Below, piece by piece: positions 3,984 through 36,721 of a stretch of DNA of 42,720 bases. The position numbers were made by a program, and so were the translations under genes. The DNA lies in contig JAFIFU010000030.1 of NCBI GenBank assembly GCA_020831885.1, positions 1-42,720 of the forward strand. The letters are read 5' to 3'. This DNA comes from Ectothiorhodospiraceae bacterium (GTDB lineage Bacteria > Pseudomonadota > Gammaproteobacteria > Nitrococcales > Aquisalimonadaceae). The notes under the pieces were generated by a model. That model saw only the letters and a list, made by a program, of their open reading frames with translations. It did not search any database and was not told the origin of the DNA. The stretch's first letter is position 1; every line of letters starts with the position of its first letter.

Positions 3984-4751
<768 letters not shown>

Positions 4752-16175: not shown

Positions 16176-16236
16176 GGAACCGCTGACCGATTCCCGGGAC
16201 GCTCCGGCTTTGCAGCGCAGGGGCAAGGGGCGGCTT
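16175..16236 (+). mobile_element. Single-ended copy of the TIR element (copy A)
   Basis: The sequence starting directly after TA (16173-16174) aligns to the left end of the complete element at 32719: 33 of the first 43 bases are identical by eye. It includes the blocks GATTCCC/TATTCCC and GGCTTTGCAGCG, then GGGGCAAGG and GCGGCT. No matching right terminus is visible before the pyc stop at 16259. It is an old or truncated copy. TA plus the first element base G make the TAG stop of the rhomboid gene. Confidence 0.7.
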
Positions 16237-31506: not shown

Positions 31507-31577
31507 GCAGCCCTGGCGGAATAAGGTGTTGCCATGGCTTGCACTCAGGGCAGGCCCCCTGCATGGAGGAGGCAGAC

Positions 31578-32654
31578 ATGAGCAACGCGGCTGAACGATC
31601 GCTGTGGGACAACCCGCTGGGGACCGACGGTTTCGAGTTCGTGGAGTACGCGGCCCCCGAGCCCGGGCAGCTTGCCGATGTGTTCCGGCGCATGGGCTTC
31701 ACCGAGATCGCCCGCCACCGCAGCAAACGGGTGAGCCTGTTCCGGCAGGGCGACATCAACTTCATCCTGAACGCGGAACCCGGTAGCCAGGGCATGTCCT
31801 TCGCCGCCGCCCACGGCCCCTGCGCCAACGCCATGGCCTTCCGGGTCCGGGATGCCCGCGCGGCGGTGGAAGCACTGCGTGCTGCGGGCGCCACCATCGT
31901 GGAGGCAAAGGCCGGCCCCATGGAGCTGAACATCCCGGCCATCGAGGGCATCGGCGGATCGCTGCTGTACCTGGTGGACCGCTATGGTGACCGCTCGATC
32001 TACGATGTGGATTTCGAACCGATTCCCGGCGCGGACCAGAACCCGGTGGGCCACGGCCTGACCTACATCGACCACCTCACCCACAACGTGGCCCGGGGCA
32101 ACATGGACCGCTGGGCACAGTTCTACGAGCGGTTGTTCAATTTCCGCGAGATCCGCTATTTCGACATCGAGGGCAAGCGGACCGGGCTCAGCTCCCGGGC
32201 CATGACCAGCCCGGACGGCAAAATCCGCATCCCGATCAACGAGTCGGCGGACGACAAGAGCCAGATCGAGGAATTCCTGCGGGAATACAAGGGCGAAGGC
32301 ATCCAGCACATCGCCCTGGGCACCGATGACATCTACGCCACCGTGGACAGCCTGCGGGCATCCGGTGTAACAATGCTGGATACTCCGGACACCTATTACG
32401 AAAAAGTTGACGAGCGGATCCCCGGTCACGGCGAGAGCGTGGAGCGCCTGCGTGAGAAGCGCATCCTGATCGACGGGGCACCCACCGAGGGGCAGGGCCT
32501 GCTGCTTCAGATCTTCACCGAGACCATGATCGGCCCGATCTTCTTCGAGATCATCCAGCGCAAGGGCAACGAGGGTTTCGGCGAGGGCAACTTCAAGGCC
32601 CTGTTTGAGTCCATCGAGGAAGACCAGATCCGCCGGGGGGCACTCGACGACTAG
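31578..32654 (+). CDS. hpd: 4-hydroxyphenylpyruvate dioxygenase
   Basis: Hpd converts 4-hydroxyphenylpyruvate to homogentisate with Fe(II) and O2, the entry of tyrosine into the homogentisate pathway. The 358-residue protein has two VOC-fold halves. The iron ligands are visible as His in YIDHLTHNV, His in [11 protein letters not shown] and Glu in [22 protein letters not shown], near the C-terminus as usual. The ATG at 31578 follows GGAGGAGG; the frame upstream runs antisense to lrp and is not coding. The CoA-ligase gene follows after 21 bases and probably shares the transcript. Confidence 0.96.
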
Positions 32655-32675
32655 CCAAACAGGAAGGAGACCACC

Positions 32676-34520
32676 TTGCCGGCCGACACACTGCTGACAC
32701 TGAAGCCCCTGTACACTAAGGAAACACTGATCTATTCCCATGGTGCTCTGGCTTTGCAGCGTGTTCGGGGGCAAGGCGCGGCTCGCAGGCAATGGCGAGC
32801 CCTTGGCAAGAGCCGCAACGCGGCAACCGGACACGCTGCAAAGCCCCGTAGGGCGGGCCATTCGCGCACGCTGAGCGGCGTTGGCGTTCTTGACAAGGAC
32901 CCCGGCCATTGCCTGCGAACGCCGCCTTGTCAGCGCACGCGAAGGGCTCCGCAGAGCACCATGGGAATAGATCAGTGTTTCCCTAACGCCCTGCGCAAGT
33001 ACGGGGATCGCACCGCTGTCCAGTTCAACGGCCGGCGGCTGAGCTATGGCGAGCTGCTTGGCCAGGCCTGCCAGGCAGCCCACGCCCTGATGGGTGCCGG
33101 AATCACACCGGGTACCCGGGTTGCACTGGTCATGTCCAACTGCCTTGAATACGCCGTTGCCGACCAGGCCATCATCCAGTGCGGCGGCGCCAAGGTACCG
33201 CTCAACCACATGCTCGGGGAAAAGGAGATCCGCTACATCCTGAAGGACGCCAACGCCCGCGTGGCCGTGGTGGGTCCCAACTTCTTCGACATCATCGCCC
33301 GCAACCGTGCCGACTGGCCGGAGCTGGAACTGGTGGTGGGCCTGGCCGATGCCGCCGACTGCCCGGAGGGCTTTCTGCCCTGGTCGGAGTTTCTTGCCCG
33401 CGGCAGCGCAACACCGCCCGACGTCGCGGTGAAGCCGGAGGATCTGGCCCTGATCGCCTACACCGGCGGCACCACCGGCCTGCCCAAGGGGGTGCTCCAC
33501 ACCCAGCGGACCGTGGCGCTGGACATGTTCTCCCACATCATGGAAATCGGCCTGCAGGACGACGAACGCCTGCTGCTGTCCTCGCCGCTGCCGCACAGCG
33601 CCGGCTTCCTGATGCTGGCGGGCCTGCTCAAGGGTGCCATCCATTTCATCGAGCGCGGCTTCGACCCGGAAACCGTGGTCCGGCGCATCCAGGAGGACCG
33701 AATCACCCTGGTGTTCATGGTCCCCACCATGATTTACCGGGTGCTGGACTGGATCGGCCGGGACCACTACGACCTCAGTTCCCTGCGCACCGTGCTCTAC
33801 GGTGCGGCGCCGATTACCGTGGAGCGGCTGCGCCAGGGGTTGGAGCGGATCGGGCCGGTGTTCATGCAGCTCTACGGCCAGACCGAGGCCCCCAACTTCA
33901 TCACCCGCCTGCGCCGGGAGGATCACCGACTGACCCCGGAGGCCCTGCACCGGCTGAAGAGCTGCGGTCAGCCCGTGGCCATGGCCCAGGTACGCATCGT
34001 CGACGACTCCGGGCGGGAGGTGCCCCTGGGCGAGAGCGGCGAGTTGGCCGCCCGCACGCCCTATACCATGACCGGCTACCATGGCCTGCCGGACAAGACC
34101 GCGGAAACCCAGGTGGACGGCTGGCTACGTACCGGCGATATCGCCCGCCAGGACGAGGACGGCTACGTCTACCTGCTGGATCGCAGCAAGGACATGATCA
34201 TCACCGGCGGCATGAACGTGTACACCACGGAAGTGGAAAACGCGATTCAGGGCTGCTCCGGCGTGGGACAGGTGGCGGTGGTCGGCCTGCCGGATCCGGA
34301 CTGGGGGGAGGCGGTCACCGCCTTCGTGGTGCGCGCCCCGGGGGCCGACATCAGCAAACAACGGATTCTCGACCACTGCCGCAACGAACTCTCCGCCTAC
34401 AAACGCCCCAAGGCGGTGCATTTCGTCCACAGCCTGCCGCTCACGGCTTACGGCAAACTGGGTAAAAAGGCACTCCGCGCCCAGGGTGCGGACAAGGCTC
34501 ACAAGGAGCACACGCGATGA
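32676..34520 (+). CDS. AMP-dependent acyl-CoA ligase with an in-frame mobile-element insertion
   Basis: The reading frame runs 614 codons from a TTG with a strong AGGAAGGAG site. The first 14 codons read MPADTLLTLKPLYT. The next 89 codons are entirely mobile-element sequence. Family homology then starts at NALRKYGDRTAV. Motifs downstream are intact: YTGGTTGLPKG, LYGQTEAP, RTGDIARQDEDGY, DRSKDMIITGGMNVY and LTAYGKLGKKAL. Removing the element and one TA restores LYT-NALRKYGD in frame, giving a normal ligase of about 525 residues. Translation may read through the element, or restart at an ATG supplied by its right terminus (32961). The substrate may be an aromatic or arylalkanoic acid, from hpd upstream and the ThDP gene downstream (ATGA overlap). 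Confidence 0.85.
   Translation: MPADTLLTLKPLYTKETLIYSHGALALQRVRGQGAARRQWRALGKSRNAATGHAAKPRRAGHSRTLSGVGVLDKDPGHCLRTPPCQRTRRAPQSTMGIDQCFPNALRKYGDRTAVQFNGRRLSYGELLGQACQAAHALMGAGITPGTRVALVMSNCLEYAVADQAIIQCGGAKVPLNHMLGEKEIRYILKDANARVAVVGPNFFDIIARNRADWPELELVVGLADAADCPEGFLPWSEFLARGSATPPDVAVKPEDLALIAYTGGTTGLPKGVLHTQRTVALDMFSHIMEIGLQDDERLLLSSPLPHSAGFLMLAGLLKGAIHFIERGFDPETVVRRIQEDRITLVFMVPTMIYRVLDWIGRDHYDLSSLRTVLYGAAPITVERLRQGLERIGPVFMQLYGQTEAPNFITRLRREDHRLTPEALHRLKSCGQPVAMAQVRIVDDSGREVPLGESGELAARTPYTMTGYHGLPDKTAETQVDGWLRTGDIARQDEDGYVYLLDRSKDMIITGGMNVYTTEVENAIQGCSGVGQVAVVGLPDPDWGEAVTAFVVRAPGADISKQRILDHCRNELSAYKRPKAVHFVHSLPLTAYGKLGKKALRAQGADKAHKEHTR
32719..32983 (+). mobile_element. Complete 265-bp MITE-like element (copy B)
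   Basis: Terminal inverted repeats of 32 bp (32719-32750 and 32952-32983) match at 31 positions; only the outermost base differs. TA dinucleotides flank both sides (32717-32718, 32984-32985), as expected for a TA target duplication. Further internal inverted repeats pair 32750-32764 with 32831-32845 (15 of 15) and 32772-32795 with 32906-32929 (imperfect). It encodes no transposase, so it would need one in trans. Element plus one TA is 267 bp, or 89 codons, which keeps the host gene in frame with no stop codon. Confidence 0.9.
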
Positions 34521-36199
34521 ATCCGCCACAGCACCACCGCACCGGGGGCGAGATTCTGGTGCAGCAGTTACGCCTGCACGGCGTGGACCGCATCTTCTGC
34601 GTGCCGGGGGAAAGCTATCTGGCGGTGCTGGACGCACTGGTGGATGCGCCGGACATCGCTGTCACCGTCTGCCGCCACGAAAGCGGCGCAGCCATGATGG
34701 CCGAGGCCTACGGCAAGTGTACCGGCCGGCCCGGCATCTGCTTCGTCACCCGGGGCCCGGGCGCCACCAACGCCCTGGCAGGGATCCATATCGCCCACCA
34801 GGACTCCACGCCACTGATCCTGTTCATCGGCCAGGTGGCCCGCGACGCCGAGGAACGGGAAGCATTTCAGGAGATCGACTACCGGCGCATGTGCGGGCAA
34901 CTGAGCAAATGGGTAGCCCAGATCGACCGGACCCGGCGCATCCCCGAGTTCATTGGCCGCGCCTTCCACACCGCCACCGCCGGCCGGCCGGGACCCGTGG
35001 TGTTGGCCCTGCCCGAGGACATGCTCACCGAACGGGCGGATGCCCCGCCGGCCCGCCATTACACCCAGGTGGAAACCGGCATATCGCCGGAGGCGCTGGC
35101 GAACATCCGCGACCATCTGACCCAGGCGGAACGCCCCATGGTCATCATCGGTGGAGGAGGCTGGGATGCGGAATCCTGCGAAGCGCTGCGCCGCTTCGCC
35201 GAAGCCTGGGATCTGCCGGTGGCGGTGTCCTTCCGCTGCCAGGGTTATTTCGATGCCCTGCACCCCAACTACGCCGGTGACGCCGGCCTGGGCGTGAACC
35301 CGAAGCTGGTGGAGGCGATCCGCGAATCCGATCTGCTGCTGGTGGTGGGCCCGAAACTGGGTGAATCCACCACGGGCGGTTACACGCTGCTGGACATCCC
35401 CCTGCCCCGGCAAACCCTGATCCACCTCCACGCCGACGCTGAGGAGCTGGGTCGCGTGTACCAGCCCACGCTGGCCGTCAACGCGGACATGCGCGCCGCA
35501 CCCCGGGCCCTGGCCACCCTGGACCCCCCGCCGGAACGCCCCTGGGCGGCACGGACCCGGGAGATCAATCAGTCCTACCGGGACTGGACCGTGCCCCCGG
35601 AAAACCCCGGACCCCTGCAGATGGGCGAGATCATCACCTGGCTCAACGCGCATCTGCCAACCGGGGCGATCATCGCCAACGGCGCCGGCAACTACGCCAT
35701 CTGGCCCAACCGCTTCTACCGCTACCGCGGTTACCGCAGCATGCTGGCGCCCACCTCCGGCTCCATGGGTTATGGTGTCCCGGCGGCCATCGCGGCCAAG
35801 CTGCTGTACCCGGAACGCCCGGTGGTGGCCTTCGCCGGTGACGGCTGCTTTCAGATGACCGGGCAGGAACTGGCCACCGCGGTGCAGTACGGGGCAGCCG
35901 TGATCATCCTCCTGGTCAACAACGGCAGTTACGGCACCATCCGCATGCACCAGGAACGGGAATATCCGGGACGGGTCAGCGCCACCGAGCTGCACAACCC
36001 GCACTTCGCCCGGCTGGCCGAGGCCTGCGGCGCCCATGGCGAACGGGTGGAACGCACCGAGGACTTCGCGCCGGCCTTCCAGCGGGCCGGGGCGACGGGC
36101 CGACCGGCGCTGATCGAGCTGATTCTGACCCCGGAGGCCATCGCACCGGGCAAGACCATCAGCGGCCTGCACGGCGACAACGAAAGGAGACAGCCATGA
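34517..36199 (+). CDS. Thiamine-diphosphate-dependent enzyme, acetolactate-synthase-like
   Basis: The 560-residue protein has the three ThDP-enzyme domains. The N-terminal PYR domain has the catalytic Glu55 in VCRHESGAAMMAEAYG, followed by FVTRGPGATNALAGIHIAHQDSTPLILF. The central domain contains RPMVIIGGGGW. The C-terminal PP domain has the ThDP/Mg motif GDGCF...NNGSYG. It could be a 2-oxo-acid decarboxylase, a carboligase or an acetolactate-synthase relative; the sequence does not decide. Its position between a CoA ligase (ATGA overlap) and an NTF2-like protein (ATGA overlap), after hpd, suggests action on an aryl-pyruvate or aryl-glyoxylate. That is inference only. Confidence 0.82.
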   Translation: MNPPQHHRTGGEILVQQLRLHGVDRIFCVPGESYLAVLDALVDAPDIAVTVCRHESGAAMMAEAYGKCTGRPGICFVTRGPGATNALAGIHIAHQDSTPLILFIGQVARDAEEREAFQEIDYRRMCGQLSKWVAQIDRTRRIPEFIGRAFHTATAGRPGPVVLALPEDMLTERADAPPARHYTQVETGISPEALANIRDHLTQAERPMVIIGGGGWDAESCEALRRFAEAWDLPVAVSFRCQGYFDALHPNYAGDAGLGVNPKLVEAIRESDLLLVVGPKLGESTTGGYTLLDIPLPRQTLIHLHADAEELGRVYQPTLAVNADMRAAPRALATLDPPPERPWAARTREINQSYRDWTVPPENPGPLQMGEIITWLNAHLPTGAIIANGAGNYAIWPNRFYRYRGYRSMLAPTSGSMGYGVPAAIAAKLLYPERPVVAFAGDGCFQMTGQELATAVQYGAAVIILLVNNGSYGTIRMHQEREYPGRVSATELHNPHFARLAEACGAHGERVERTEDFAPAFQRAGATGRPALIELILTPEAIAPGKTISGLHGDNERRQP

Positions 36200-36663: not shown

Positions 36664-36721
36664 CTTTGCCCCCGAACACGCTGGAAAGCCAGAGCACCGC
36701 GGGAATAGATCAGCGCTTCCT
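36655..36721 (-). mobile_element. Single-ended copy of the TIR element (copy C)
   Basis: Read on the minus strand from 36721, about 57 bases match the left end of the complete element with 5 differences by eye, including TGATCTATTCCC, GGTGCTCTGGCTTT and CAGCGTGTTCGGGGGCAA. TA (36722-36723) flanks the terminus. No opposite terminus is seen toward 36621, so this is a truncated copy. It lies between the hpd operon and the convergent nitroreductase gene. Confidence 0.8.

Follow-up and report, generated by a model that had tools for sequence, protein, structure and literature searches.

Known elements of comparable kind set the frame for the locus described here. Passages of PMC10969869 describe it as "not unusual" that ORFs of intragenic MITEs are fused in frame, and state that Rickettsia palindromic elements (RPEs) fuse in frame at unusually high frequency. 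The same passages mention ERIC, QMITE1 of Coxiella and BOX as other MITEs with ORFs or in-frame fusions, which we liken to the present element by description only. The IS5 target motif is given as YTAR in an excerpt of PMC10359306. A literature search for MITEs in Ectothiorhodospiraceae returned one paper, PMC3832224, which has the term in a reference only. In this study, we analysed a 42,720-nucleotide stretch of gammaproteobacterial DNA (the window) in which a short element with inverted termini lies inside a CoA-ligase gene (Table 1). The best explanation, which we hold with good confidence as a joint account, is that an IS5-derived MITE landed in frame by chance and is read through from the TTG start codon, giving the ligase a probably disordered segment of 89 residues.

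The initial annotation had placed a MITE-like element in frame at the 5′ end of the ligase gene, and this description was borne out by the inverted termini, the duplicated target, the many copies of the family and an element-free allele in a relative. The position 14 codons inside the gene was confirmed in the sequence. As had also been noted, the ligase frame meets no stop within the element; it runs uninterrupted from TTG 32676 as far as its stop at 34520 and crosses the element in the sole stop-free phase of that strand. The limits of the element had to be redrawn. A repeat finder recovered the inverted repeat, and the termini, previously given as matching at 31 of 32 positions, were identical over 31 bp: the repeat stands, while the mismatch disappears because the earlier repeat started one base too far out. 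The supposed TA duplication gave way to a 4-bp CTAA of the YTAR type and the length of 265 bp to 263 bp. CTAA was chosen as the duplication unit because the identical flanks of other copies are 4-bp YTAR motifs. Flanks of 4 bp were identical in 12 of 26 paired copies of the genome that contains the window (hereafter the host genome) and non-identical in 14; 11 of the 12 were YTAR. This motif stood directly outside 86 of 127 distinct ends in the host genome and was missing from the other 41. The net insertion of 267 bp, a multiple of three, holds under either parse and corresponds here to the element plus one duplication (263+4), or 89 codons. Reading all six frames revealed no transposase gene in the 263-bp element, and an Rfam scan of the whole window at gathering thresholds gave no match. 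Since the termini show no divergence, transposition into the ligase gene was probably recent.

Table 1. Position of the element, the interrupted gene and related features (window coordinates unless a locus is named).
Feature	Position	Strand	Basis or remark
MITE, GC 0.64, without transposase gene	32720..32982	+	263 bp; 31-bp perfect termini
Left terminal inverted repeat, 31 bp	32720..32750	+	Repeat finder and terminus comparison
Right terminal inverted repeat, 31 bp	32952..32982	-	Repeat finder and terminus comparison
Left target-site duplication CTAA	32716..32719	+	YTAR duplications at other copies
Right target-site duplication CTAA	32983..32986	+	YTAR duplications at other copies
Acyl/aryl-CoA ligase (AMP-binding) gene, element in frame	32676..34520	+	614 aa from TTG 32676
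Shine-Dalgarno-like AGGAAGGAG	32661..32669	+	6 bases before TTG 32676; kept in relative; read from sequence
In-frame ATG within right terminus, alternative start giving MGIDQCFPNALRKYGD...	32961..32963	+	Read from sequence
4-hydroxyphenylpyruvate-dioxygenase-like gene upstream, start approximate	31575..32654	+	PF14696 E=1.2e-61
Thiamine-pyrophosphate enzyme downstream, start overlaps ligase stop	34517..36199	+	PF02775 E=5.3e-47; NF006052 E=6e-266
selD pieces	L155 3824-4702 and L197 1-150		Two contig ends; element ~30 residues before C-terminus
1,202-bp elements	L291 (G001); L292, L302, L312 (G003)

The search for an element-free allele in close relatives, proposed at the outset as a check, was successful in one relative, with the same start and frame. 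The ligase orthologue of this same-genus genome shares 88% amino-acid identity with the window ligase and lacks the element, and the BLASTN alignment of the window to it breaks at the insertion. The relative reads TTG CCG GCC GAT ACA CTG CTG ACC CTG AAG CCT TTG TAC ACC AAC GCG CTG CGG AAG, and its start codon, ribosome-binding site and frame are those of the window allele minus the insert. This allele encodes LYTNALRK, so the N-terminus that had been expected after removal of the element exists in nature. The position of the CTAA duplication reads CCAA there. The two records of this allele, L032 and L061 (Ectothiorhodospiraceae bacterium isolate CSSed162cmB_49), were identical at 4,527 of 4,527 shared bases and hence count as one relative. 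Two findings named beforehand as contradicting an insertion, an N-terminal extension without inverted repeats and an element-free allele in another frame, did not occur in this one relative. BLASTN similarity to the two records ends about 84 bp upstream of the insertion point, and the dioxygenase-like gene had no similarity there. Over the 495 codons downstream, the ligase has been under constraint, with a dN/dS of 0.12 relative to this allele and 36, 23 and 148 differences at the three codon positions; this conservation mostly records the period before the insertion and is thus no evidence of function in the present protein.

The element belongs to a dispersed family. With up to 3 mismatches allowed, 155 family termini were found in the 4.13-Mb host genome versus 0 for a reversed-pattern control (100 of them were listed; 127 distinct ends entered the flank analysis and 141 the coding-run survey). 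Family termini were present in 13 of the 59 genomes searched, host genome included. Besides the window element, five copies measured exactly 263 bp, two of them paired copies of the host genome and three from G002, a genome of the same genus; these five matched the window element at 237-249 of 263 positions. The window itself carries two single termini of the family, at 36700-36720 and 16176-16196, with 1 and 3 mismatches and TTAG and CTAG flanks, respectively. Many contigs end within about 50-60 bp of perfect termini (C2, C9, C62, C65, C67, C76, C81 and C108 are examples). Because the draft assembly breaks close to such termini, young insertions are probably under-represented among the complete copies.

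The 4-bp YTAR target indicates the IS5 family. Among 30 transposase loci retrieved from relatives, four contain elements of 1,202 bp, which we consider candidate full elements: their ends are like GGAAACGCTGATTTATTCG and they contain a 340-codon transposase frame. YTAR flanks all four on both sides, the two flanks being identical only in L292 and L312, and their outer 19 bases match the MITE terminus at 15-16 positions. The two transposases scanned, those of L302 and L291, matched NF033581, the IS5 family, with a best E of 5.9e-102. A PF01609 (IS5-type transposase) search of the host genome gave no intact match, and its single DUF772 match lay in a locus without family termini; these searches identified no autonomous element in the host genome. 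The lack of a PF01609 transposase may be genuine, or it may arise from the draft assembly, which breaks at many copies and in which a collapsed transposase copy could be missing. We classify the element as an IS5-derived MITE, with its likely autonomous type in relatives.

The ligase is probably not the only gene with an in-frame copy. The two parts of a selD gene lie at contig ends: the 5′ part on C101, which ends 91 bp inside the element after ...PQTSGGLLLSVHPSWEDSV, and the 3′ part on C65, which starts 55 bp before the element end and continues with KGIGREHGIALMPFGEAVKADGPSLIRVHG and a stop. These element pieces have the same orientation as the window element and differ from it by 1 mismatch in 91 and 0 in 55 bases, the middle being unassembled. 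As neither G001 nor G002 has a close selD orthologue (the best, in G001, reaches 40%), the gene was compared with solved structures. The joined non-element residues align with chain residues 217-340 of SelD 3u0o, the last ~22 coming from C65, and it is very probable that this 263-bp element also lies in frame in selD. A phosphodiester glycosidase gene (L002, PF09992) contains a 263-bp copy in frame, in the orientation opposite to that of the ligase copy; a candidate ATG lies some 12 codons ahead of it, and a signal-peptide-like stretch follows it immediately. With its non-element part as query, orthologues were found in G002, G001, G004 and G007, and none of these four has a family terminus in its 5′ region; the G002 gene has short element remnants just past its 3′ end and ~230 bp upstream. 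The glycosidase is a likely third in-frame insertion, and stays likely instead of established because its native start is uncertain. An aldo-keto reductase gene (L195, PF00248 E=2.9e-42) is interrupted after 214 codons by a copy that is out of frame and ends the reading frame. An FMN-binding gene beside L012, with an ORF that spans the element, was rejected as an in-frame case and left uncounted, given that the element is upstream of a start codon preceded by a good ribosome-binding site.

A different relation to genes was seen at stop codons. We surveyed coding-like runs of at least 80 codons that meet the element in the host genome and in G001, G002 and G005; the survey is incomplete, because the ligase and the glycosidase fall below this threshold and were found through paired copies. 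The stop lay inside the YTAR duplication in 18 of 25 runs of the host genome and in 37 of 50 across the four genomes (L116, L122, L126 and L204 are examples), and two more host-genome runs in the stop phase have non-YTAR flanks. In element-rich loci, the element stands directly behind 19 of 45 stops in YTAR context versus 0 of 143 other stops. At L017 (1477-1658), a cation-efflux gene ends in EKH and a stop codon supplied by the terminus of an old copy. From these positions, the element is seen to insert at gene stop codons and to rebuild them. A narrow literature search for one exact wording of such a stop-codon overlap yielded no match.

Regarding the product of the interrupted ligase gene, TTG 32676, with its strong and conserved ribosome-binding site, most likely remains the translation start and would give a protein containing KETLIYSHGALALQR..., in which the 89 element-derived codons are read through into a disordered internal segment near the N-terminus. 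The ligase domains are PF00501 (E=4.7e-80), from residue 104 of 614, and PF13193 (E=1.2e-20). In an AlphaFold2 model built with 13 sequences (mean pLDDT 74.6), the core ligase fold was intact and the first helix spanned residues 98-109; the insert is predicted to be disordered because pLDDT was below 50 over residues 1-96. The RNA of the element is predicted to form a hairpin of -179 kcal/mol (z -12.9) with the right terminus fully paired, and so stable a predicted structure could lower expression or favour another start. A consensus scan of 32600-33100 found no sigma-70-like promoter or terminator, and an element-borne promoter or terminator was discarded as a candidate.

The same hairpin, together with the foreign segment, might instead block useful expression and make the insertion a hypomorphic or null allele, an early pseudogene. 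There would have been little time for decay, since the termini show no divergence, and loss of the ligase could be tolerated because the host genome has further ligase genes, three of them 66-69% identical to this one. Against this, the frame is intact from TTG to stop, the gene is constrained relative to the orthologue and the predicted core fold is preserved, so that we regard a null allele as rather unlikely. The likelihoods attached to the alternatives are not mutually exclusive, and a null allele is compatible with our preferred account of where the insert came from.

A second alternative is that the ligase starts at the ATG of the right terminus, which had been pointed out as a possible start and is indeed in frame. 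The protein would then have a short swapped N-terminus and no long insert, and the first helix of the model comes just after this codon (residue 96). In the glycosidase, the same ATG would directly precede the signal-peptide-like MGIVPCFPKAGWWIPALLLLLLVLQPGAA (judged by eye), which an extension of 100 residues would otherwise displace. However, by eye the ligase ATG has no ribosome-binding site at normal spacing, whereas the native TTG keeps a strong one that is conserved in the relative; moreover, the predicted fold leaves no base of the terminus unpaired, and no promoter-like site was found. A start within the terminus is therefore quite improbable for the ligase and is most attractive for the glycosidase. 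Read-through from the TTG is the favoured reading.

The initial annotation had left open whether the frame survived by selection or by chance, and our tests (phase share, shuffles, codon positions and stop counts) favour chance. The MITE transposed into a CTAA site that lay 14 codons within the ligase gene, and this target was duplicated. The gene stayed in frame because the site read nCT/AAn, a stop-free phase, the element measured 263 bp (+4 = 267) and its interior was open. YTAR is limited to two phases in coding DNA because in-frame Y/TAR is a stop, and only in nYT/ARn are both the duplication and the terminus free of stops. Phases were counted in 151 kb of sequence, made up of 176 coding-like ORFs of the window and of loci that surround copies; ORFs with a terminus were excluded, as were the initial 60 bases of every ORF. 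The compatible phase accounted for 22 of 35 YTAR sites (8 of 11 in a first count of the window alone). Given this share and a 263+4 length divisible by three, an in-frame outcome is expected in about 63% of such gene insertions. The clear gene-interior insertions were in the compatible phase in 3 of 4 cases (ligase, selD and glycosidase, the last counted despite its uncertain native start; the aldo-keto reductase was out), and at the phase rate the probability of 3 or more of 4 is 0.53. Left out of this count were L017 (duplication decayed), L152 (flank CGCC, not YTAR) and L020 (a 90-codon run of doubtful coding status, flank TCAG); with L017 and L152 the in-frame share becomes 3/6, and with L020 too 4/7. 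Among the long runs of G001, G002 and G005, 2 of 5 are entered in the compatible phase (L230 and L274) and the others in the stop phase (L231, L218 and L250). Compared with the expected ~63%, none of these shares indicates an excess of in-frame insertions.

The element sequences were also examined for signs of a selected peptide. The six copies of exactly 263 bp, the window element included, had 91 changes from their consensus, 33, 32 and 26 by codon position, and 2 stops versus 4.2 expected in simulation (P=0.19). In the compatible phase, 10 of their 12 strands were open versus 8.4 expected (P=0.24); copies of 256 and 264 bp (L228 and L229, in G002) and of 266 bp (L114, in the host genome) were left out of this test. 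These six copies thus displayed neither codon-position bias nor a significant lack of stops. Shuffles that kept the termini were open in 51% and 49% of cases on the respective strands and in 23% on both. Ten paired copies of 265-271 bp in G001 and G005 had a frame-keeping length in only 2 cases (269 bp); all 10 had a stop on at least one strand, and each 269-bp copy was open on a single strand. A selected open frame was consequently discarded as unsupported, the codon positions being even and the stop count compatible with neutral mutation. That the subfamily is a true protein-invading element selected for in-frame compatibility, as proposed for RPEs, is very improbable: the 10 open strands of 12 and the two clear plus one likely in-frame cases in a single genome would suit it, but the codon positions and stop counts fit neutral mutation, the in-frame share is accounted for by phase frequency, a frame-keeping length is lacking in the near-full copies of 256 and 264 bp and in most of those of 265-271 bp, and out-of-frame gene insertions exist in the host genome and its relatives. 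Weak selection would still be compatible with so few cases (four interior insertions and six element copies). The tests support, short of proof, a mechanical origin of the frame match over a selected coding function: it would follow from YTAR targeting at high genomic GC combined with the length and composition of the subfamily.

As for its place among known systems, the element is short, has inverted termini, a target duplication and dispersed copies, lacks a transposase gene and is missing from the corresponding site of one relative, all of which characterize a MITE. With the IS5-family insertion sequences (NF033581) it shares the YTAR duplication and outer termini resembling those of the 1,202-bp elements of relatives; unlike them, it has no transposase gene, the resemblance is limited to the outer termini, and a likely autonomous partner was found in relatives but not in the same genome. 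It may be speculated, although we find it doubtful, that an IS5-derived MITE acts in this GC-rich gammaproteobacterium as a portable protein segment and start codon, steered by YTAR to rebuilt stops or to a readable phase. If so, the ligase, selD and glycosidase would be repeated in-frame fusions and the terminus a supplier of new translation starts. In any case, selD is a natural setting in which to learn whether an important enzyme can accommodate an insert of 89 residues. Like the RPEs, as these are presented in passages of PMC10969869, the element is a short palindromic mobile sequence lying in frame in genes for unrelated proteins, here the ligase, the two ends of selD and, likely, the glycosidase. 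In contrast to the RPEs, the six copies give no sign of peptide conservation, and most long coding runs that meet the element in the host genome end in a YTAR stop (18/25). The case belongs to a known kind, the in-frame fusion of a MITE with a gene, to which it adds a measurable mechanical reason for the in-frame outcome. Outside Rickettsia, target-site phase, stop-free termini and element length can thus suffice for such fusions in the absence of a selected peptide, and this provides a null expectation for testing claims that in-frame insertions have been selected.
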